NCBI RefSeq assembly: GCF_021533195.1
Contig: NZ_JAJNKB010000005.1
Coordinates: forward strand, 1-64,000
Direction of reading: 5' to 3'
Source: Portibacter marinus
GTDB lineage: Bacteria > Bacteroidota > Bacteroidia > Chitinophagales > Saprospiraceae
DNA: 64,000 bases
Shown: positions 17,149 through 31,903 of the stretch, one piece after another
Numbering within the stretch: the stretch's first letter is position 1
Layout: each line of letters starts with the position of its first letter
Translations under genes and position numbers: made by a program
The notes under the pieces: model-generated
Told to the model about the DNA's origin: nothing
Databases searched by the model: none
The model's input: only the letters and a program-made list of their open reading frames with translations

Positions 17149-17910
17149 ATGATAAAATTCTTTAGAAAAATTCGCCAAAGATTGCTTGCCGAAAACAAGG
17201 TGAGCAAATACTTATTATACGCCATCGGAGAAATTTTTCTTGTCGTCATTGGAATCCTGATTGCTTTGCAAATAAATAATTGGAATGAATCCAAAAAAGA
17301 AAAGGCTTCGATCAGGACATCACTCACTTCATTGAAAGTGAATTTAAATGAAGATATTAAAGACCTGAACAGGCAAATTGAACATACTAAAACGCTGCTA
17401 AAACATATTGATTTCACATTTAAAATCATTGCATCACCTGATTATGAGAATAAACCGCTTTCAGTTTTTGCCGACAGTATAGGTGATCTGGCTTCAGAAA
17501 GAACATTTTTACCTAACAACACTACTTTCAAGTCAATGGAGTCAGGGTCGCATTTTCAATGGATTAAAGACCAGGAATTCAAAGAGTCTATTTATAGATA
17601 CTATGTTTTTTTAGATAAAATTTCCAGCGTAGTAGAACAAAACAATATGTTTGTAAAGCTACGGGTTGAGGATTTCATATATAATAGAATGGAGCTGGGA
17701 ACTTACTTTCCCGAGTTGAATCGCCATTCACGAAATAGAGATTTAAGTTTGGATAACACCAATCTCTTTTGAGACGATCCAAATATTGAAAATGTGCTGA
17801 TTGGAAGAATGCTTCGAGGTAATGGCGAAATTGATATGTCGCAGCAAGCTATTTTGGAAGCAAATAAGTTGATAGGAATTATTGACAATTATCTTAAAGT
17901 GAATTTGTAA
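17149..17910 (+). pseudogene. DUF6090-family gene interrupted by one nonsense codon
   Basis: The frame starts as MIKFFRKIRQRLL with the membrane segment AIGEIFLVVIGILIALQINNWNE (about 24-46), as in all DUF6090 proteins. It is nearly the same as the intact gene 28475-29242, with long identical DNA stretches. At 17770-17772 there is a TGA where the intact copy has CGA (NLF-R-ED). After it the frame continues to match for 45 codons and ends at 17910 at the expected place. A single C-to-T change thus truncates the protein at 207 residues. The first 207 residues, including the anchor, may still be made. Confidence 0.85.
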
Positions 17911-19959: not shown

Positions 19960-19979
19960 AAGAATAAACCCTTATTCTT
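19960..19979. terminator. possible hairpin between convergent genes
   Basis: AAGAATAA and TTATTCTT form an 8-base stem with the loop ACCC. It sits between the convergent beta-helix and S74 genes and overlaps the stop codon of the latter. There is no strong T-run on either side and the stem is A+T-rich, so a terminator role is uncertain. Confidence 0.25.
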
Positions 19980-22900
19980 CCCTTTGATCACTAAGCTCTA
20001 CTTGCTTTTGTTCTGCTACACTTGCTTTTTGGCTATTCAATAGCTTTTCGAGAAGCAAGCTTTGACGTTCTATGAGTGCTTGCTGGCTGGCAACCATATC
20101 TTTTAGTTTGCTAATCTCCTTATCGTGCTGCTTCACTATCTCGTTCGTATAAAGCACGATTTTGTCGTAAAAGATTCCCTCGATGACGCCTTCTTCCGAA
20201 CGAACAACCAGTTCATGAAGTCCGAGGCTATCCATCTCTTCAGCAATATAGCCTATCTCTTTTATCTCGGGAGAATGAGGGCGATTATACCGTCGGGGCT
20301 GGACGCCCAAAACCTTGTTAAAATCGACTTCGAAATCCTCGATATTTCTCTTATCACGTCGTGTCGATGTGTTGCGAACCAACTTGCCACTAGCAGTAAT
20401 ATTCACAGGATTTCCAGTACCAGTAGCCATTGCAGGCATAGCAATCGATTTGTCTTCGCCGACAACGAGAACTTGTGTCATGGCAGCATTGGTAACTTCG
20501 AAAATATTCTTCGATGCGTTTCGGTTGTAAATTTTAACGGAACCGTTCAGTTTGAGTCGATCCGTACCAAAATCCCCGAAGATTAGAGCGTCGTTTTCAC
20601 CAGCACTTGTAGGTTCGATATACAATCTATTTCCATTTACCTCATTTTTTCCTGCTGCAGTTCCTATAAAAATACTTCCGCTGCCAATAGTCGATGAACC
20701 TGCCGAAGCACCCACCGCTACGTTAGAGTTGCCAATTGTATTTGCGAAAAGTGCAGTTGGTCCGATACCCACATTGCTATTAGCTGTGGTATTAGAATTG
20801 AGTGCAGCACGGCCTATTGCAACATTGCTACCTCCCGAAGTATTTGACATCAACGCACCATCACCTATACCTACATTTCCACCAAAAATCAAATCGTCAA
20901 CCAAACCGGCATCTTTTCCAATAAATACGGATCCTGCGTCGTTCAAGAAATCAAGTCTACCTTTACGCATAATGAAACGCTCTTCACCGGCAATATCGAA
21001 CCGAATAATATCATCGTCGAGGCCTTCTTCTACCTGGATTTTTGTGTCTTTGTCCCCATCACTAAATCCATTACGTATACTTAAGTGTCCATTCACGCGA
21101 AGATAGTCGTTATCAAATTCACCATAGATCAGCGCATTATTTGCGTCAGCTGACGAATTCTCAATATATAAACGATTACTTTGTGTTTCGTTAAAACCAG
21201 CTGAAAATCCGAGGAATATGCCTCCGGATCCAGTAGCATTATGACCTGCAGAGGCTCCTATGGAGACATTAGACGAACCCGTTGTATTGCTAAAGAGCGA
21301 TCGATTTCCAACGGATACGTTATTGGAGCCATTTGTATTATTTCCCGACCCTGAACCTACTGCAGTATTGAAAATCCCACCTGTTACTGAAGACAGTGCG
21401 CCGATGCCGACTGCAGTATTATTGTGACCGGTCGTATTAACCAGTAATGCATTAAGACCTAAGGCTGAATTGTTGAAACCACTGGTATTAGCGGACATTG
21501 CACGATATCCTAATGCAACATTTTGTCCACCAATCGTATTCGCTTTTCCGGATTCAAAACCTACAAAAACATTTTTATTAGAGGTGAGGTCATCTAACAT
21601 TCCGGCGTCTTGACCGATGAAGACGGACTCCCCCGTATTCAAGACGTTGATTCGACCTTCGTCCATTACAAAATATTCTATACCATTGAGGTCGAAACGT
21701 ATCTGATCTTCATCTGCGATTTCCTCAACTTGTATTTTGGTATCATTATCGATATCAGTTATTGCACCTGTTAAAACCTGATCTGTCCAATTCGCATTTC
21801 CTGCTCCATCTGTAGTTAAGATTTGCCCTATACTTCCATCTGTTTGAGGCAAATTATAGGCGCTATTAATATTAAGCGTCCCATTCACTCGCAACAAATC
21901 ATTGTCAAATTCACCGTAGATTAGGGCATTCGTTTCGTCAGCTGGTGAGTTTTCGATATAAAGTCGATGCCCGGCAGTCTCGTTCCTACCTGCAGTAATC
22001 CCGATAAAAACGCTACTATCGCCAAGTACATTAAAACCAGCCTCGGATCCTAATGCAGTATTGCCATTGCCAGTTTGATTTCTGTAAAGAGCATTGTGAC
22101 CCAATGCGCTGTTTCGGTTTCCGCTTCTATTGCTACGCATAACATGATCTCCTACAGCGGTGTTACTGCTTCCATTGACATTCAGATACATGGCTTCATA
22201 TCCTGCTGCTATGTTGGAATTTCCATCTCTGTTGGACCACAGTCCGTAAGCTCCTAATGCAAGATTATTAGCTCCTGTAGTATTCACAACTAGCGACTGC
22301 ATTCCCAGGGCTGAATTGGCAATTCCTGTTGAATTTAAAACAAGTGATTGTGTGCCTATAGCGGTATTCTGATTGTTTGACAGGTCATCTGACGCGCCGG
22401 TACCGAAACCTAAAAAAACAGAATTACCCGTATTTACTACATCGATTCGACCCCTGTCAAATATAAAATACTCCGTACCACCAAGATCTATACGCAATCG
22501 GTCCTCATCGTTACTTTCTTCTACTTGAATCTTGGTGTCGTTATCAAGATCCACTAAAATTGACTCTGGTGTGGGGTCCGTCCAGTTCGCGCTACCCGCA
22601 CCGTCTGTTGCTAGTATCTGTCCGGCAGAACCATCGATTTCCGGCATCTTGTATGCTCCATTTACATCTAAGGTGCCATTGATTCGTAAGAAGTTAGTTT
22701 CAAAGTTACCGAAGATAAGCGCCGCTGTAGAATCGGCTTCTGAATTTTCAATGTAAAGGCGATTGCTTCTTATTTCATTCATCCCTGCTTTGTATCCAAT
22801 GAAGACTCCACCACCTCCTATCGTATTTTCACCTGCAAATGTTCCGATGGCAGTGTTTCCATTTCCTGCTGTATTCTGGTACAACGAATAGTTACCTAAG

Positions 22901-23592
22901 GCAACATTAGACGAACCGTTCAAATTACTGAATAGCGTTCCGGTACCCAATCCTGTATTGTAACCTCCTACTATATTGTTATATAGGGAAACAGCTCCCA
23001 CAGCAGTGTTTCGTTGGCCACTTTCGTTATTACGCAAACTATAACTTCCTACCGCAATGTTTCCAATACCGGTTGTATTCAAATGAAGCGCTTCTTCGCC
23101 GACTGCTATATTATCGTTCATTGTAAAATCGTCGTTCGCTCCTGCTCCATTACCGATAAATACTGAATTACCGGTATTAACAACATTGATTCGCCCTTCG
23201 TCGATGTTAAGGTATTCCGTTCCACCAAGATCTATTCGCAAAATGTCCTCGTCAGCAGACTCTTCAACCTGTAATTTGGTATCATTGTCTGTATCTGAAA
23301 CCAGGACGGCACGGTCGCCAAGCCTATACCACTGAGCACCAAAGCAATAGTAAAAGCTATGGTCTTCGGTTACATACACCAGTAATCCATCTGTAGGGGA
23401 ACTAATCGCATCTCTTTGAGCAGCGGTCATTCGCGGTATAAGAATGCCGGATGTATCACTGTTAAGTTCCAGGATGGCTGATGGATGAGGACTATTCGTT
23501 CCGATTCCAACGTTTTGGCCGGAAGCGGAGAAAGAAATAATGAGTATTAGAAAGAAAATTGCGCTTTGAATAGCAGCTTTAAATATTTGCAT
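19972..23592 (-). CDS. large repeat surface protein with C-terminal S74 chaperone domain
   Basis: The 1206-residue protein starts with a signal peptide (about 1-25) and VGIGTNSPHPSAILELNSD plus LLIPRMTAAQRDA. Four modules of about 240-260 residues follow. Each has a DNDTK(I/L)QVEE opening, a NTGxSVFIG segment, a run of YadA-head-like repeats of about 22 residues (NTAVGxxAL...NTTG), and a closing RLYIEN...ALIYGEFD...LRVNG; the last module is shorter. The C-terminus (about 1090-1160) is a Peptidase_S74 intramolecular chaperone (DKRNIEDFEVDFNKVL, then PEIKEIGYIAEEMD) followed by a coiled coil (about 1150-1190). Such chaperones trimerise fibres and cleave themselves off. It is probably a long trimeric surface fibre. 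Confidence 0.85.
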   Translation of the reverse strand: MQIFKAAIQSAIFFLILIISFSASGQNVGIGTNSPHPSAILELNSDTSGILIPRMTAAQRDAISSPTDGLLVYVTEDHSFYYCFGAQWYRLGDRAVLVSDTDNDTKLQVEESADEDILRIDLGGTEYLNIDEGRINVVNTGNSVFIGNGAGANDDFTMNDNIAVGEEALHLNTTGIGNIAVGSYSLRNNESGQRNTAVGAVSLYNNIVGGYNTGLGTGTLFSNLNGSSNVALGNYSLYQNTAGNGNTAIGTFAGENTIGGGGVFIGYKAGMNEIRSNRLYIENSEADSTAALIFGNFETNFLRINGTLDVNGAYKMPEIDGSAGQILATDGAGSANWTDPTPESILVDLDNDTKIQVEESNDEDRLRIDLGGTEYFIFDRGRIDVVNTGNSVFLGFGTGASDDLSNNQNTAIGTQSLVLNSTGIANSALGMQSLVVNTTGANNLALGAYGLWSNRDGNSNIAAGYEAMYLNVNGSSNTAVGDHVMRSNRSGNRNSALGHNALYRNQTGNGNTALGSEAGFNVLGDSSVFIGITAGRNETAGHRLYIENSPADETNALIYGEFDNDLLRVNGTLNINSAYNLPQTDGSIGQILTTDGAGNANWTDQVLTGAITDIDNDTKIQVEEIADEDQIRFDLNGIEYFVMDEGRINVLNTGESVFIGQDAGMLDDLTSNKNVFVGFESGKANTIGGQNVALGYRAMSANTSGFNNSALGLNALLVNTTGHNNTAVGIGALSSVTGGIFNTAVGSGSGNNTNGSNNVSVGNRSLFSNTTGSSNVSIGASAGHNATGSGGIFLGFSAGFNETQSNRLYIENSSADANNALIYGEFDNDYLRVNGHLSIRNGFSDGDKDTKIQVEEGLDDDIIRFDIAGEERFIMRKGRLDFLNDAGSVFIGKDAGLVDDLIFGGNVGIGDGALMSNTSGGSNVAIGRAALNSNTTANSNVGIGPTALFANTIGNSNVAVGASAGSSTIGSGSIFIGTAAGKNEVNGNRLYIEPTSAGENDALIFGDFGTDRLKLNGSVKIYNRNASKNIFEVTNAAMTQVLVVGEDKSIAMPAMATGTGNPVNITASGKLVRNTSTRRDKRNIEDFEVDFNKVLGVQPRRYNRPHSPEIKEIGYIAEEMDSLGLHELVVRSEEGVIEGIFYDKIVLYTNEIVKQHDKEISKLKDMVASQQALIERQSLLLEKLLNSQKASVAEQKQVELSDQREE
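20880..23300 (-). repeat. four tandem modules within the S74 fibre gene
   Basis: On the minus strand the module opening that encodes DNDTK(I/L)QVEE recurs at about 23270-23300, 22515-22555, 21725-21755 and 21030-21055, a spacing of roughly 700-790 bases. The DNA copies have diverged, so they are old duplications, but enough identity remains that recombination between modules could change fibre length. The short inner repeats (about 66 bases) encode the head-like units. Confidence 0.65.
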
Positions 23593-23751
23593 GATCTTGT
23601 AGATTTTGATATTTCAGAGCTTTAAGTTCTCATGCATTGCCTTAAAGATTGGGGAATATTATACGAAAAAGGTGGAAAATTCTCCGATTCGTTTGCTGAG
23701 CTGAAGGATTGAGTCTTTTTTCTTCCACCATATACTAGTACAGGAGGAGAT

Positions 23752-24462
23752 TCACGCCTCCCGCGCCGTATTCCACACCGCCATGCCCAGAAAATAAAAG
23801 CCGCAAACCACAGCCAGCCAGGACAGAAAGACATATTCAACCGGCCAGAAATAAATGACCGTTAGCATTGTTCCCATTAAGAGGGCGCTGATTGCCAGGT
23901 CCAACTTCTGGTAACGCGAAGGTCGGCTGGGATAGGGGAACTTAAGGGGTACAAAATGCAGAATGGACAATACTACGATGAGAATTGCATTGAGGATCAG
24001 GTAATCACTAAAAACGAAGATGCAAAAAAAGGCGACGACATTCCACAGTACAGGGAAGCCTATAAAGTATTTTTCCTCGTAGACCATGCCTTCCTTTCCA
24101 TAGTACGAGGCGGAGGTCAATAAGATCAAAGCCGCCAAATACAGGCCAAGCGATTCCGGTAAGATGCCCGCCTTGTAAATCATATAGGTGGGCACGACCG
24201 CATAGTTGGTGAAGTCTACCACGGTATCGATCATGCTGCCGTTGATCTTTGGCAACACTTCTTTTACACGGAAGCGCCTCGCCAGGGTACCGTCCACACC
24301 ATCAATGACCGCTGCAACGATCAGATAGAACATGGCCGTCCGAAAATCTGCTTCATTGGTGGCGAGGATGGCCAAAAATCCGAAAACGATACCCGTTGCC
24401 GTGAAAAGATGGACCAGCCATGCCAGTGCAATGGATTGGAATTTGTTTTTGGCTTGACTCAT
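23752..24462 (-). CDS. pcs: phosphatidylcholine synthase (Pcs-type CDP-alcohol phosphatidyltransferase)
   Basis: The 236-residue membrane protein carries the CDP-alcohol phosphatidyltransferase motif in the form known for Pcs: Asp57-Gly58-x2-Ala61-Arg62-x12-Gly75-x3-Asp79-x3-Asp83, with an additional Asp54. The opening AWLVHLFTATG and the segment VDFTNYAVVPTYMIYKAG are also typical of Pcs rather than of PssA or PgsA. About seven membrane segments are seen. The enzyme would join choline to CDP-diacylglycerol to give phosphatidylcholine and CMP in the inner membrane. The divergent neighbour is a choline-type symporter, which supports the call. The gene is richer in G+C than most of the window. 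Confidence 0.85.
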   Translation of the reverse strand: MSQAKNKFQSIALAWLVHLFTATGIVFGFLAILATNEADFRTAMFYLIVAAVIDGVDGTLARRFRVKEVLPKINGSMIDTVVDFTNYAVVPTYMIYKAGILPESLGLYLAALILLTSASYYGKEGMVYEEKYFIGFPVLWNVVAFFCIFVFSDYLILNAILIVVLSILHFVPLKFPYPSRPSRYQKLDLAISALLMGTMLTVIYFWPVEYVFLSWLAVVCGFYFLGMAVWNTAREA

Positions 24463-24561
24463 GTTTCACAGTTTTTAGGACGATCTTCCCAATATAGAAT
24501 ATTTATAAAAAATTATCGCATCTTTCCGGTCGAAGAAAGCCAAGCGAAAAGTTTAATAACC

Positions 24562-26172
24562 TTGAGAAGAATTTTTTTAGCGCCCATCATCCTTGTTCTC
24601 TTACTGAGCGTGCAAGGTGTCATCCTCTACTTTTTTACCGACGCCGATGTGCTTTGGAGCGGTTACATCTCAATGGTCTTTTTCTTCTTCCTCATTTTCC
24701 TGATTGGAACCTATGCAGCCCAAAGAAACCAGGCCAATGATTACAATCAATTGCTGCTGGCCGGTCGTTCCATTCCCCTCTATGTTGCCGTCTTTACCAT
24801 GACGGCTACCTGGGTAGGAGGGGGATACATCAATGGAACGGCGGAGAATACTTACAGCAGTAATTATGGATTGGTATGGGTGCAGGCGCCCTGGGGATAT
24901 GCCATGAGCCTGATTCTGGGTGGCTTGCTTTTTGCGCGAAAAATGCGTCGTTTCGAGTTTAAGACAATGTTGGACCCGCTCAAACAGAAGTTTGGAAAGA
25001 AAATGTCAGCCGTGCTTTTTGTTCCTGCACTAACGGGTGAGTTGTTTTGGACCGCGGCGATTTTGACCGCGCTGGGTATTACCTTTTCTACCTTGTTGGG
25101 CCTCGATATGCAACTTTCCATCATTTTCTCTGCCATCATTGCCATTGCCTATACGGCCATTGGTGGTTTGTGGGCAGTGGCCTTGACTGATGTTTTTCAA
25201 ATGATCATTTTGATGGTCGGTTTGATCATTGTTGTTCCTGTAGCCCTTGCTCATGTGGGAGATGCGGACACCGTATGGGCAATGTACAAATCTCAAAAAG
25301 GAGCGGCAGCAACCTTGCTACCTTCCAGGGCGGCCCTGGGGGATTATTATTGGGTGTGGTGGGATTATGCCTTATTGTTGATGCTGGGCGGAATACCATG
25401 GCAGGTCTATTTCCAAAGGGTGCTTTCTGCTAAAAATGAAGGCGTCGCTGTCAGACTTTCGATATTCGCCGGATTTCTATGCCTGATTGCTGCTATCCCC
25501 TCGGTGATGATCGGTGTGATTGGCTCTTTTGCCGACTGGACGGCTATGGGTTTGCCGGAGCCTGAGAATGCGGCTGCTATTTTACCCCATGTCATTCGCT
25601 ATCTGACCAATCCCTGGGTGGCTACCATTGGCCTGGGTGCTATCGCGGCAGCGGTCATGTCGTCGGTGGATTCTTCCATTTTGTCTGCTTCCTCCATGTT
25701 GACCTGGAACATATACAAACCCATCGTCAAGCCTCATGCTACTTCTGCAAATCTGGTTGCTGTAGCCAAAAAGTCGATTTGGATTATTGGTATCGCGGCT
25801 ACTTTGGTGGCACTAAGGGTAGAGAGTGTGTACCAACTCTGGTTTCTCTGCAGCGACTTTGTCTATTGTCTTTTGTTTCCGGCACTTTTTTGTGCTTTCA
25901 ATGATGAAAAGTCTAATATTTATGGTGCGCTTGCGGGTTTTACCGTGGCATTGATCTTGCGATTGGGTGGGGGAGAAGCAAGCCTTGGAATTCCTGCATT
26001 TTTGCCTTATCCGGGCACTGCCGGCGGTGAGGTCATTTTTCCTTTTCGTTCTCTGTCAATGTTTGTTGGATTACTGACCATCTTCACCGTTTCCAGATTG
26101 ACGCAGGGTAGAAGGTCAGGAAAAGGTCTTGGTAGAATGGTAATGCAGGATCATGAAGATGCATTAGACTAA
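24562..26172 (+). CDS. sodium-dependent choline symporter of the SSS family (CHT1-like)
   Basis: This SSS-family transporter has about 12-13 membrane segments. Long stretches resemble the animal high-affinity choline transporter CHT1: TATWVGGGYINGTAE, YGLVWVQAPWGY, LLLMLGGIPWQVYFQRVLS, AAVMSSVDSSILSASSM, and a glutamate in LRLGGGEASLG. The frame is open upstream to an ATG at 24409, but that would overlap the divergent pcs gene. The TTG at 24562 gives a basic start before the first hydrophobic segment and was chosen; an ATG at 24673 is a further alternative. It should import choline with Na+ for the adjacent Pcs. The gene is also G+C-rich, like pcs. Confidence 0.82.
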   Translation: MRRIFLAPIILVLLLSVQGVILYFFTDADVLWSGYISMVFFFFLIFLIGTYAAQRNQANDYNQLLLAGRSIPLYVAVFTMTATWVGGGYINGTAENTYSSNYGLVWVQAPWGYAMSLILGGLLFARKMRRFEFKTMLDPLKQKFGKKMSAVLFVPALTGELFWTAAILTALGITFSTLLGLDMQLSIIFSAIIAIAYTAIGGLWAVALTDVFQMIILMVGLIIVVPVALAHVGDADTVWAMYKSQKGAAATLLPSRAALGDYYWVWWDYALLLMLGGIPWQVYFQRVLSAKNEGVAVRLSIFAGFLCLIAAIPSVMIGVIGSFADWTAMGLPEPENAAAILPHVIRYLTNPWVATIGLGAIAAAVMSSVDSSILSASSMLTWNIYKPIVKPHATSANLVAVAKKSIWIIGIAATLVALRVESVYQLWFLCSDFVYCLLFPALFCAFNDEKSNIYGALAGFTVALILRLGGGEASLGIPAFLPYPGTAGGEVIFPFRSLSMFVGLLTIFTVSRLTQGRRSGKGLGRMVMQDHEDALD

Positions 26173-26214
26173 TTGCTAATTATTAGTAAATTTAAAGCTT
26201 GTAAATCCTCAATT

Positions 26215-26631
26215 GTGACAGAGCCCATTGACCTGCAATACATAGACCATGTGGCCATTAGAGTCAAAGATCTCGGCGAATCTGCAAAATGGTATTCCAA
26301 AGTACTTGGTCTAAAAAAAGTTCAACCACCAGAATGGGGAGCATTTCCTGTTTTCATGATGTCGAAAGGGTTTGGTGTAGCACTTTTTCCGGCCAATCTG
26401 GATCATGACTCCTTGAATCCTGCATCCAAAAATGTCAAGATAGATCACTTTGCATTCCACGTCAACCGGCATAATTTTGAAAAGGCCATTGAAAAATACA
26501 AGGATTTAGGATTGAGCTACCAAATTCAGGATCATTACTATTTCGACTCCATTTATACCAAAGATCCCGATGGACATACCGTAGAATTAACCACCATAAA
26601 AGTAGATGCGGGCGAATTTTATAAGTTATAG
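26215..26631 (+). CDS. VOC-family (glyoxalase/dioxygenase-like) protein
   Basis: The 138-residue protein (GTG start at 26215; the frame opens further back at a TTG directly after the symporter stop) has two beta-alpha-beta-beta-beta modules of the vicinal oxygen chelate fold. Likely metal ligands are His in IDHVAIRV (about residue 11), His in IDHFAFHV (about 78) and Glu in TVELTTI (about 126), the order seen in glyoxalase and ring-cleaving dioxygenase families. The substrate is unknown. It follows the choline symporter by 42 bases and may share its transcript, but its base composition is that of the ordinary genes. Confidence 0.8.
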   Translation: MTEPIDLQYIDHVAIRVKDLGESAKWYSKVLGLKKVQPPEWGAFPVFMMSKGFGVALFPANLDHDSLNPASKNVKIDHFAFHVNRHNFEKAIEKYKDLGLSYQIQDHYYFDSIYTKDPDGHTVELTTIKVDAGEFYKL

Positions 26632-26717
26632 ATCAATGTGTGTTCATTATTCATTTTATCGATTAAATTCGCAGGGTAGGGAAGTGGTGTCCCTGTATAA
26701 CCTATAAACCCAACTTT

Positions 26718-27629
26718 ATGAGACCCATCAATTATGCGCTGACTTTCTTTCTTTTGCCTCTAATATTGTCAGCCCAGGAGAATGCTAAAGATACTTTCAG
26801 ACTTTTTTACTTAGGTGGTCAATCCAATATGGATGGATTTGGACTTGTCGAGGAAGTGCCGGATTCTATTCATTCAAATCTCGGAGAATCATGGATCTTC
26901 CACGGTCATCCCGCTCCTGATGGGGATGAAAGCGGGGGATTGGGCATCTGGGCCAAACTACTTCCCGGGCAAGGCTGGGAATTTTCAGCGACCGAAAAGG
27001 AAAATAATTTGTCCGGTTTTTTCGGACCAGAACTTTCATTCGCAAAGAAACTCCAGGAATACTATCCTAATGATAAAATAGCCATCATCAAATATTCAAG
27101 AGGTGGAACTTCGATAGACAGTGTCGCTGCCGGAAGATATGGCTCTTGGGAACCTGATTTTAAAGGACAAAATGGGATCAATCAATACGACCACTTTCTG
27201 AAAACGCTGCAAGAGGCGATGAAAGTGAAGGACATTGATGGAAATGGTGTTGAGGATGTTTTGATTCCATCGGGCATACTTTGGATGCAGGGGGAAAGTG
27301 ATGCCTATAGGGAAGAAGTGGCGTTGAGGTATTATGACAATTTAAAACGTCTCATGGATTTGGTGCGTGCTGCATTGAGGGTCGATGATCTGCCGCTTGT
27401 CATTGGAAAGATTACGGATTCAGGCAAAAATGATGCTGGAAAAGTATTTAGATACAGCGAACTGGTACAATATGCGCAGGAAAAATATGCACGAACAGAA
27501 CAAAAGGTGGCGATTGTGCGAAGCACGCAAAACTATGGTTACTATGACGCTTATCACTATGACAGTAGTGGCTACATTGACCTGGGAGAAAAATTTGCGG
27601 AAGCGATTTATAAGTTAAATCGTAAATAA
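26718..27629 (+). CDS. SASA-family carbohydrate esterase, secreted
   Basis: The 303-residue protein has a signal peptide (about 1-19) and the hallmark block YLGGQSNMDGFG, in which Ser36 is the nucleophile of the sialate-O-acetylesterase/CE6-like family. The second block, GILWMQGESDA (about 193-203), carries the conserved Gln-Gly-Glu-Ser-Asp, and the C-terminal DAYHYDSSGYIDLG (about 275-288) holds the catalytic Asp/His. Such enzymes remove acetyl groups from glycans such as acetylxylan. This fits with the GH16 gene 2.5 kb downstream, but no operon links them. Confidence 0.85.
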   Translation: MRPINYALTFFLLPLILSAQENAKDTFRLFYLGGQSNMDGFGLVEEVPDSIHSNLGESWIFHGHPAPDGDESGGLGIWAKLLPGQGWEFSATEKENNLSGFFGPELSFAKKLQEYYPNDKIAIIKYSRGGTSIDSVAAGRYGSWEPDFKGQNGINQYDHFLKTLQEAMKVKDIDGNGVEDVLIPSGILWMQGESDAYREEVALRYYDNLKRLMDLVRAALRVDDLPLVIGKITDSGKNDAGKVFRYSELVQYAQEKYARTEQKVAIVRSTQNYGYYDAYHYDSSGYIDLGEKFAEAIYKLNRK

Positions 27630-27676: not shown

Positions 27677-28459
27677 ATGATTAAATTTTTTCGAAAGATT
27701 CGACGACGGTTGCTTTCAGCAGGTGAAACTGGACGATACCTAAAATATGCCATTGGAGAAATTGCACTGGTTGCTATTGGCATTCTGTTGGCTTTCCAAT
27801 TAAATGAATGGAATGACCATCGTAAGAAAGTAAAGCTGGAGAAGGAATACTATTGCCGTTTACTAGATGACGTAAAATTAGACCAGGAACAAATTCAAAA
27901 CTTATTGAGATTGGCTGAACAGCGGTTGGTCTCTTCCAATGAATCGGTCCGCTTACTATTAGATGATCGCTCAGCAAAAATTGACATTGGCACACAGGTT
28001 TCTAATGCGACGAAGGCTGTTTATTCTGACTTTGAGCCCAATAATTCAGCGTATGAAGATCTGAAATCAGGAGCCAATCTGAATATCATCAACGATAAAT
28101 CGATCATCAAAGCGCTTAATCACTATTTTAACAGAGTGGAAGAATTGAAGAGCATCATCATGATCAATGGGCAACATGCGGTGGATATTTCGTTTGCTCA
28201 TGATGATTATTTTGAAAATGGTACTGTGCTGGCTTCCTTGGATGAAGGTCGATTGACGGTGGGTTTGGATGAGGAATTAAAGGAGGCTGTTCTTTCCTTA
28301 GACGATAACAGACTATCCAGGGAAATGAGAAACAGACTACTCAATGAATCCTTAGAGTTCGTTGGCGTCAATACCAGACAAATCGAACTGTACAACTTAC
28401 TGCTGCAGGAAATCGAACAGTTAAAAGGTAAATTGGGAGCCAAGTGTGAAGCCGGCTAA
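27677..28459 (+). CDS. DUF6090-family membrane-anchored protein
   Basis: The 260-residue protein has the family start MIKFFRKIRRRLL and a single membrane helix, AIGEIALVAIGILLAFQLNEW (about 31-51). A mostly helical, charged domain follows (about 52-255) that is likely to lie in the periplasm. The family is abundant in Bacteroidota and has no known function. It is followed 16 bases later by a second member, so the two are a tandem operon. The two differ clearly in their C-terminal domains, so this is not a recent duplication. Confidence 0.8.
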   Translation: MIKFFRKIRRRLLSAGETGRYLKYAIGEIALVAIGILLAFQLNEWNDHRKKVKLEKEYYCRLLDDVKLDQEQIQNLLRLAEQRLVSSNESVRLLLDDRSAKIDIGTQVSNATKAVYSDFEPNNSAYEDLKSGANLNIINDKSIIKALNHYFNRVEELKSIIMINGQHAVDISFAHDDYFENGTVLASLDEGRLTVGLDEELKEAVLSLDDNRLSREMRNRLLNESLEFVGVNTRQIELYNLLLQEIEQLKGKLGAKCEAG

Positions 28460-28474
28460 AAAAATCGCAAACCA

Positions 28475-29242
28475 ATGATTAAATTCTTTCGCAAAATTCG
28501 ACAACGATTAATTACAGAAAATAAGGTGAGTAAATACCTGTTATACGCCATTGGCGAAATTGTGCTTGTCGTCATTGGAATCCTGATCGCGTTGCAAATC
28601 AATAATTGGAATGAAACCAAGAAAGAAAAGGCTTCGATCAGGACATCACTCACTTCGTTGAAGGTCAATTTAAATGAAGATATTAAAGATTTGAATAAGC
28701 AAATTGACCATAACCAGAGACTTCTCAAACATATTGATTTCACATTTAAAGTCATTGCATCACCTGAATTTGAGAATAAACCGCTTTCAGTTCTTGCTGA
28801 CAGTATTGGTGATCTGGCTTCAGAAAGAACATTTTTACCTAACAATACCACTTTTAAGTCTATGGAGTCAGGGTCACACTTTCAGTGGATCACTGACCAG
28901 GAATTCAAAGAGTCTATTTACAGATACTATGTTCTTCTAGATAAAATTTCCAGTATAATAGAACAAAATAACATGTTTGTAAAGCTACGGGTTGAGGATT
29001 TTATCTATAATAAAATGGAGCTGGGAACTTACTTTCCTGAGTTGAACCGCCATTCGGAGAATAGGGATTTAAGTTTGGACAACACCAATCTTTTTCGAGA
29101 GGATCCGGCACTGGAAAATGCGCTGATTGGACGAGCGTTTCGTGCTAATGGAGAAATTAATATGTCCCAGGAAGCGATTGTGGAAGCCAATAAACTGATA
29201 AAAATAATTGACAATTATCTTAAAATGAATCAATTGAAATAG
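28475..29242 (+). CDS. DUF6090-family membrane-anchored protein
   Basis: The 255-residue protein opens with MIKFFRKIRQRLI, has its membrane helix at about 24-45 (AIGEIVLVVIGILIALQINNW), and a helical periplasmic domain. It is the intact sister of the broken copy at 17149-17910, with very high DNA similarity over the whole length, including shared stretches of about 30 bases near 28630. The recent duplication contrasts with the more distant neighbour at 27677-28459. The function is unknown. Confidence 0.82.
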   Translation: MIKFFRKIRQRLITENKVSKYLLYAIGEIVLVVIGILIALQINNWNETKKEKASIRTSLTSLKVNLNEDIKDLNKQIDHNQRLLKHIDFTFKVIASPEFENKPLSVLADSIGDLASERTFLPNNTTFKSMESGSHFQWITDQEFKESIYRYYVLLDKISSIIEQNNMFVKLRVEDFIYNKMELGTYFPELNRHSENRDLSLDNTNLFREDPALENALIGRAFRANGEINMSQEAIVEANKLIKIIDNYLKMNQLK

Positions 29243-31042: not shown

Positions 31043-31903
31043 ATGAGGAGCGAAAAGCAAATATTTGCACTAATTAAAGCGGTGGCTCAGGCTGATCAAC
31101 GCATCAGGGCTGTCATCCTCAATGGTTCGAGAGCAAACAACAGGATTACCCCAGACCGATTCCAAGATTATGACATCACCTTTGTGGTCAAAGATCTGGA
31201 TTCCTTTAGAGCGGAGCCGGATTGGATCGATGTATTTGGTCAACGCATCATCATGCAAATGCCCAATAGTATGAAGTTGGACGAAGAAGATCGTTCAGAG
31301 GAGCAAAATAGCATGGTCTATCTGATGCTTTTTGAAGATCATAATAGAATCGATCTTACCTTGATACCAGTGGATGACATGGAGGAGTATAGCGACAGTT
31401 TGACAAAGGTTCTATTGGATAAGGATGCATTTTTTGATTCCTCGATAGAAGCGACCGAAAAGGATTATTGGGTTCGAAGGCCAACTGAAAAGGATTTTCT
31501 GGACTGTTGCAATGAATTTTGGTGGGTGAGTACGTATGTAATCAAAGGATTAATGCGAAGAGAAGTTTATTACGCTAAAGACATGTTGGAAGGTCCTGTC
31601 AGAAAAATGTTTTCACGAATGTTGAAGTGGTATGCAGGGGCTAAATATGACTTCGAAATCAATGTCGGAAAAAGCAATCGGTTCTTGAAAAAATACATTG
31701 ATCATGATACCTATCGCAAAGTATTGAAAACATATCCGGATGCAGAGGTCGAAAGTATTTGGTCTAGCATAGAGGTTATGATGGATCTTTTTAATCAATT
31801 GAGTGCAGAAATTGCAGACCGTTTAGGATTCTCTTATCTTGCTGAAGAGGGTAAAAATGTGAAAGATTATTTTGAGCATCAAAAGAAACTTAGTGAGCAA
31901 TAG
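31043..31903 (+). CDS. ANT(6)-like aminoglycoside adenylyltransferase homologue
   Basis: The 286-residue protein shows the nucleotidyltransferase signature of the AadE/AadK group: VILNGSRANNR (about 26-36), then DRFQDYDITFVV (about 40-51) with the metal-binding Asp pair, and a third acidic site in RIDLTLIPVDD. The C-terminal part (WWVSTYVIKGLMRREVYYAKD) is also typical of ANT(6). Chromosomal members of this family are widespread and often do not confer resistance. No mobile element is adjacent. Confidence 0.85.
   Translation: MRSEKQIFALIKAVAQADQRIRAVILNGSRANNRITPDRFQDYDITFVVKDLDSFRAEPDWIDVFGQRIIMQMPNSMKLDEEDRSEEQNSMVYLMLFEDHNRIDLTLIPVDDMEEYSDSLTKVLLDKDAFFDSSIEATEKDYWVRRPTEKDFLDCCNEFWWVSTYVIKGLMRREVYYAKDMLEGPVRKMFSRMLKWYAGAKYDFEINVGKSNRFLKKYIDHDTYRKVLKTYPDAEVESIWSSIEVMMDLFNQLSAEIADRLGFSYLAEEGKNVKDYFEHQKKLSEQ

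Follow-up and report, generated by a model that had tools for sequence, protein, structure and literature searches.

What function is served by a gene for a phosphatidylcholine synthase (Pcs) and a gene for a relative of the neuronal choline transporter that stand back to back in a member of the Saprospiraceae? Both reading frames were found, in divergent orientation, by an ORF check of the window, the 64,000-nucleotide stretch of the Portibacter marinus genome (assembly size 5.19 Mb) that was analysed here (Table 1). The first-pass annotation had read the two genes as a route by which choline is imported and phosphatidylcholine produced, and the trees, the co-occurrence and the adjacency described below lend substance to that proposal. 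Judged from sequence comparisons, the pair very probably constitutes a two-gene scavenging module, with choline going in and phosphatidylcholine coming out. The CHT-type symporter would move choline across the inner membrane, driven by the Na+ gradient, and Pcs, located in the same membrane, would convert CDP-diacylglycerol and choline to phosphatidylcholine and CMP. The transport and synthase activities, the Na+ coupling of the window symporter and a shared regulation of both genes are thus predictions, as is the presence of phosphatidylcholine in the cell membrane when choline is available.

Table 1. Features of the pcs-CHT locus (window coordinates).
Feature	Position	Strand	Remarks
pcs, phosphatidylcholine synthase (predicted)	23752-24462	-	236 aa; motif, NCBIfam, tree
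Divergent intergenic region, presumed shared promoters	24463-24561		GC 0.333
CHT-type Na+/choline symporter (SLC5A7-like; predicted)	24562-26172	+	TTG is the probable start; the ORF list gives ATG 24409; sfCHT identity, tree
VOC/glyoxalase-fold protein	26215-26631	+	start GTG 26215, deduced from sequence; PF00903, 53 bits

As listed, the symporter ORF begins inside pcs, which it overlaps by 54 bases. The best matches in 25 of 33 other Saprospiraceae genomes start only at residue 47-60 of this ORF (two of the remaining matches start later and six earlier), and because most homologues start there and a TTG codon lies in frame, translation likely begins at TTG 24562, which leaves 99 bases between the two genes. 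A sigma-70 scan of positions 23600-26800 returned four sites against a mean of 5.8 in shuffled sequence, i.e. no excess, so the promoters of pcs and CHT are presumed ones; a search for Rfam families in 23000-27000 gave no match. The VOC/glyoxalase-fold gene is possibly co-transcribed after CHT, and it lies outside the conserved pcs-CHT module, as it does not recur at other pcs-CHT pairs.

The association of the two genes was surveyed in 100 Saprospiraceae genomes from 99 genera. Pcs scores separate cleanly: 37 genomes have E values of at most 5.3e-50, and the others have either no match or one no better than 3.7e-8. With a CHT threshold of 1e-60, 34 genomes contain CHT, 37 contain Pcs, 34 contain both and 63 neither (Fisher p 1.3e-23, a value that overstates independence because the counted genomes share ancestry); Pcs is consequently found in all 34 genomes with CHT versus 3 of the 66 without it. 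The matches of both proteins are far beyond chance. How often the genes adjoin, a check suggested with the initial annotation, can also be answered: they lie within 2 kb of each other in 24 of the 34 CHT genomes and are divergent in every one of these 24, while in the other ten they are on different contigs (nine genomes) or 12 kb apart on the same strand (one genome). A scan with one protein and six patterns, one of them taken from the doubtful N-terminal extension, found four close relatives on Saprospiraceae MAG contigs, all of which carry pcs on the other side of CHT (one is probably the same contig as that of genome G016). The genes around the pair vary between genomes and the pair stays: among 25 stretches (the window, 20 genome regions and the 4 MAG contigs), no gene family besides these two is common to more than five. 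Three genomes (G001, G009 and G079) contain Pcs without a CHT match that passes the threshold used, and no transporter domain that might replace CHT is reported among the four ORFs neighbouring their pcs genes; in G009, the pcs gene is close to the end of its contig, and the missing partner may therefore be an assembly effect.

This distribution also bears on the best surviving alternative, which is nevertheless quite improbable, namely that choline taken up by the symporter goes chiefly into glycine betaine for osmoprotection, pcs being a neighbour of incidental or secondary importance. A precedent for such an arrangement exists on the Priestia megaterium plasmid p2_CACC119 (L119), where a CHT homologue with 54.9% identity to the window symporter is likewise divergent to choline-related enzyme genes, although its partners are annotated as a betaine-aldehyde dehydrogenase (betB) and an iron-containing alcohol dehydrogenase rather than a lipid synthase. 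Genes of these two types make glycine betaine from choline in Bacillus. On the strength of this one Bacillota locus, members of the CHT family seem to be combined with more than one kind of choline user. In the P. marinus genome, five aldehyde dehydrogenase loci match the betaine-aldehyde dehydrogenase model, but the best of them, at 352 bits, falls well below the 668.6-bit cut-off, and no betA match was found. Moreover, CHT tracks Pcs and not betA-like genes (E below 1e-100; none above the curated cut-off) in the Saprospiraceae: the latter occur in 31 of the 100 genomes, in 14 of 34 with CHT versus 17 of 66 without it (p 0.17). On the basis of this control and of the betA and BADH searches in the P. 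marinus genome, betA-linked osmoprotection was rejected as the main role of the symporter, and a function in phosphatidylcholine synthesis is preferred.

The identity of the synthase is supported by its signature sequence. A scripted search recovered a single CDP-alcohol motif, DG-x2-AR-x12-G-x3-D-x3-D, at residues 57-83 (D57-D83), in full agreement with the initial description of a complete and exactly spaced Pcs motif from Asp57 to Asp83. The window motif likewise agrees with the longer version given for Legionella Pcs, DGX2ARX8PX3GX3DX3D (PMC7867332). In a review on the lipids of Agrobacterium, the Pcs motif has the X12 spacing, with a G at the position of the penultimate D of the other forms (PMC3972451). 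The five top-scoring NCBIfam models are all phosphatidylcholine synthases (133-157 bits), followed by pssA at 49.5 bits. None of the five scores reaches its curated equivalog cut-off (300-440 bits); since these models, to judge from the labels Ps, Leg, Agro, Borr and Brdy in their names, read as lineage-specific, this shortfall limits the equivalog label rather than the motif-based family assignment. With this qualification, the window synthase is most probably of the Pcs type.

The same assignment emerges from a tree of 61 rows, consisting of 7 Saprospiraceae PssA and 54 Pcs-type sequences, the latter comprising 32 from Saprospiraceae, 16 from family f24, two of six from family f36 and four of eight plasmid hits. 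The 32 Saprospiraceae Pcs rows represent 31 of the 37 genomes with Pcs, as one of the 31 has two copies; the six genomes without a locus were omitted. The PssA rows are split from all Pcs-type rows with support of 100/100, and the window Pcs falls on the Pcs side; together with the pssA score of only 49.5 bits, this split led to the rejection of PssA as an identity for the window synthase. The two groups differ in spacing as well, with x8 in all seven PssA rows and x12 in 53 of 54 Pcs-type rows (in the remaining one, L083, the search found no motif), including all four proteobacterial Pcs rows. These four, Sinorhizobium among them, group with the f36 sequences and the second type of f24, and a branch with support of 100/97 divides this group from the Saprospiraceae Pcs; because of this separation the window Pcs belongs to a sister set and is not nested among the characterised lineages. 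Its own branch is longish (0.93). A hydropathy script predicts six transmembrane segments, where about eight are expected for Pcs; an AlphaFold model of low confidence (4 rows, pLDDT 60) has eight helices of at least 15 residues, and a PDB fold search with this model gave no match at E 0.001 or better. The P. marinus genome contains one Pcs and no PF04191 (PEMT-type) methyltransferase, in a search for which the control was positive in 6 of 14 genomes.

Two further sets of Pcs-type proteins were observed. Genome G079, in which no CHT passes the threshold used, carries tandem pcs paralogues (L026, contig C194, 791-1453 and 1501-2163, both on the minus strand) that share 39% and 45% identity with the window Pcs; a functional split between them is possible. 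In family f24, 14 rows (L083-L096, 133-150 bits) form a second Bacteroidota Pcs-type clade, supported by 99/93 in the tree, and 11 of the 14 genomes concerned lack CHT.

The best sequence matches of the symporter in the PDB are sfCHT (614 bits; 9rws/9rwt) and human CHT1 (SLC5A7; 421 bits), versus 65 bits for the next carrier, a sodium/glucose cotransporter, which bears out the first-pass observation of a resemblance to the animal high-affinity choline transporter. The sfCHT protein from Salimicrobium flavidum, an organism outside the Bacteroidota, is a Na+-dependent choline transporter inhibited by hemicholinium-3, as established by proteoliposome assays and cryo-EM (PMC13220886, 2026). The window symporter is 58.4% identical to it (291 of 498 aligned residues in a phmmer alignment), and all 21 checked positions, taken from those that the sfCHT paper discusses, are identical in the two proteins. 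The conserved positions (sfCHT numbering) include the choline-site residues W99, Y126, W176, W298 and W445, the Na+-site residues A97, T98, V100 and Q226 and the residues of the cytoplasmic exit, R84, Q303, R304, S307 and A220. Alanine variants of W99, W176, W298, W445, Q303, R304 and R84 in sfCHT have lost or lowered transport (PMC13220886). In an alignment of 14 Saprospiraceae rows (A2), 11 of 14 checked positions are invariant, with all five choline-site residues kept in every row; variation is confined to V100 (V in 11, I in 3), A220 (A in 13) and S307 (S in 9, A in 5).

A tree of 45 rows was calculated for the symporter with 30 of the 34 Saprospiraceae CHT genomes, the other four being without a locus, and with three of the five other SSS hits of the P. 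marinus genome (of the other two, the first was too short to be used and the second was not entered). A clade with support of 100/97 unites the Saprospiraceae, f24 and Priestia sequences with sfCHT and human CHT1 and leaves the three SSS paralogues outside, in a tree whose outgroup branches are long and whose bootstrap was flagged as unsettled by a warning of the tool. Human CHT1 is 47.9% identical to the window symporter over 474 residues; it is about equally far from every bacterial CHT row (43-48% identity) and sits on a long branch, and for these reasons its position within the clade is unsettled. The phylogenies proposed with the initial annotation were thus carried out in part, with the SSS paralogues of the same genome and the Saprospiraceae PssA as comparison, and by placing the symporter in the CHT clade and Pcs apart from PssA they do not refute the proposed route.

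Conservation of the choline site is also the point on which a second alternative turns, that of a Pcs-like enzyme which attaches a related alcohol, for instance a methylated ethanolamine, imported by the symporter. The Pcs scores below the curated equivalog cut-offs, the supported branch between Saprospiraceae and proteobacterial Pcs rows and a report that some Pcs homologues may lack activity (PMC10434233) are all compatible with it; the x12 spacing and the separation from PssA speak against it on the side of the enzyme, as does, on the side of the transporter, the retention of all choline-site aromatics and gate residues, and it appears marginally less probable still than a main role in betaine synthesis. 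The idea that the symporter is an ordinary proline- or sugar-type SSS carrier, beside pcs by chance, draws on a Pfam search that returned only SSF (126.7 bits) and on the absence of a passing NCBIfam model (sss 156.3 bits against a cut-off of 184, PutP 113.3 against 515.5), and was rejected as scarcely credible because the PDB scores and the exclusion of the three SSS paralogues from the CHT clade strongly contradict it.

Compared with known systems, the proposed choline-to-phosphatidylcholine module combines familiar parts in an unfamiliar way. In Sinorhizobium, Agrobacterium and Brucella, high-affinity choline import by the ABC importer ChoXWV feeds Pcs (PMC3972451, PMC8371380). The window pair resembles this route in that choline import is predicted to feed Pcs, and differs from it in the importer, which is a CHT1-family Na+ symporter divergently linked to pcs; as the linked importer belongs to the SSS family, the ABC importer that characterises the ChoXWV-Pcs route is not what is found at the locus. 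Human CHT1 belongs to the same family of solved structures as the window symporter, but feeds acetylcholine synthesis in neurons and not a lipid synthase. For sfCHT, which shares the CHT clade with the window protein, no link to Pcs is drawn in the main text of its paper, where the single occurrence of 'phosphatidylcholine' is among the references and the term 'genomic context' is absent (PMC13220886). A search of openly licensed full texts, as far as their accessible parts extend, likewise found no link between an SSS or CHT carrier and Pcs. The protein families and the feeding of Pcs by choline import are therefore known, and what is new in this well-supported module is the combination of CHT with Pcs and their co-inheritance.

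Beyond the Saprospiraceae survey, CHT was found in 7 of 395 Bacteroidota genomes, namely that of P. marinus, another of the Saprospiraceae and five of genus g191 (family f24). Pcs-type proteins are present in 24 of the 395, including all seven with CHT; the other 17 are without it. Two of the five g191 genomes (G206 and G298) have the pair in the divergent arrangement of the window, with a Saprospiraceae-type Pcs, and the remaining three (G217, G267 and G431) have a Pcs of the second type that is located elsewhere. Among 28 genomes of g191, CHT occurs in nine (one a partial match), with a divergent pcs beside it in three (G206, G298 and G507) and no pcs within a flank of about 1.5 kb, less at contig ends, in the other six. 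In the Pcs tree, the G206 and G298 sequences nest inside the Saprospiraceae beside genome G098 (100/97); in the CHT tree, they again nest inside the Saprospiraceae beside G098 (88/87), within a five-row Saprospiraceae-f24 group supported by 100/96. This congruence rests on G206 and G298, G507 not being among the tree rows. Because both genes nest beside the same genome, the pair seems to be transferred in one piece, and pcs and CHT would accordingly be inherited, and apparently also exchanged, together. At the CHT genes of G217, G267 and G431 (L101, L102 and L103), a large protein, F4, is encoded nearby in all three cases and another family, F6, in two; by its look, the large protein near the f24 CHT genes may be SusC/SusD-like.

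A further reading, which is put forward tentatively and with somewhat less than even confidence, is that pcs-CHT is a compact (~2.4 kb), self-sufficient and horizontally moving cassette that gives its host a phosphatidylcholine membrane when choline is around, the CHT gene being re-wired to each choline user by divergent pairing. The placement beside G098 in both trees is one of three points behind it. The second is base composition: Pcs (GC 0.489, GC3 0.616) and CHT (0.480, 0.512) have the highest values among 38 chosen window ORFs, the other 36 of which have a mean GC3 of 0.396 (SD 0.050, maximum 0.475). The third is the absence of the pair from G080, the sole genome of the same genus in the sample, in which CHT is missing at the threshold used and the Pcs match is only at the level of PssA. 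Matches of G080 to the window flanks are scattered, the three longest lying on three contigs and one of them hitting a gene family with several copies, and they give no clean junction that would show an empty site. If the cassette reading is true, bacterial CHT1-type transporters would be general choline feeders, serving lipid synthesis in Bacteroidota and betaine synthesis in Bacillota.

Phosphatidylcholine itself has been reported in this phylum and its relatives. It is the major polar lipid of Cyclobacterium halophilum (PMC7232363), a species that also appears in the list of CHT homologues in the sfCHT paper (PMC13220886), a major lipid of Algoriphagus halophytocola (PMC11532033) and a main lipid of [Bizionia] echini (PMC12843772), and it has been reported in Balneolaeota and relatives of Salinibacter (PMC5167729). 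For the Saprospiraceae, the search of openly licensed full texts, within their accessible parts, found no report of this lipid. With three such species and pcs in 37 of 100 Saprospiraceae genomes, the first-pass statement that phosphatidylcholine is not a usual lipid in Bacteroidota was too strong, and its suggestion that the two genes may signal life alongside a eukaryotic host or an algal choline source is unsupported, the data speaking neither for nor against it. With the proposed module, the bacterial relatives of the neuronal choline transporter, which have only recently been characterised, would gain a definite function in cell physiology. It also predicts an ability to produce phosphatidylcholine from scavenged choline in 37 of the 99 Saprospiraceae genera sampled, or more than one third. 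The pair would also be a minimal two-gene set for putting this lipid into a laboratory bacterium, and the Saprospiraceae CHTs could serve as a natural panel of variants for the mechanism of the human transporter.

The surroundings of the pair in the window contain several other features. Small paralogous proteins that start with MIKFFRKIRxRL are encoded on the plus strand at 17149-17772, 27677-28459 and 28475-29242, and they form one cluster in the comparison of gene families across the 25 stretches. This family is multi-copy in G080, as 16 of the 21 listed flank matches of that genome hit the first or third paralogue, mostly at the protein start. On the minus strand, positions 19972-23592 encode a repeat-rich protein of 1206 residues with a signal-like start, for which a Pfam search gave no match at the threshold used, and the plus-strand gene at 31043-31903 encodes, by sequence, a protein of the streptomycin adenylyltransferase family (PF04439, 365 bits, residues 1-279).
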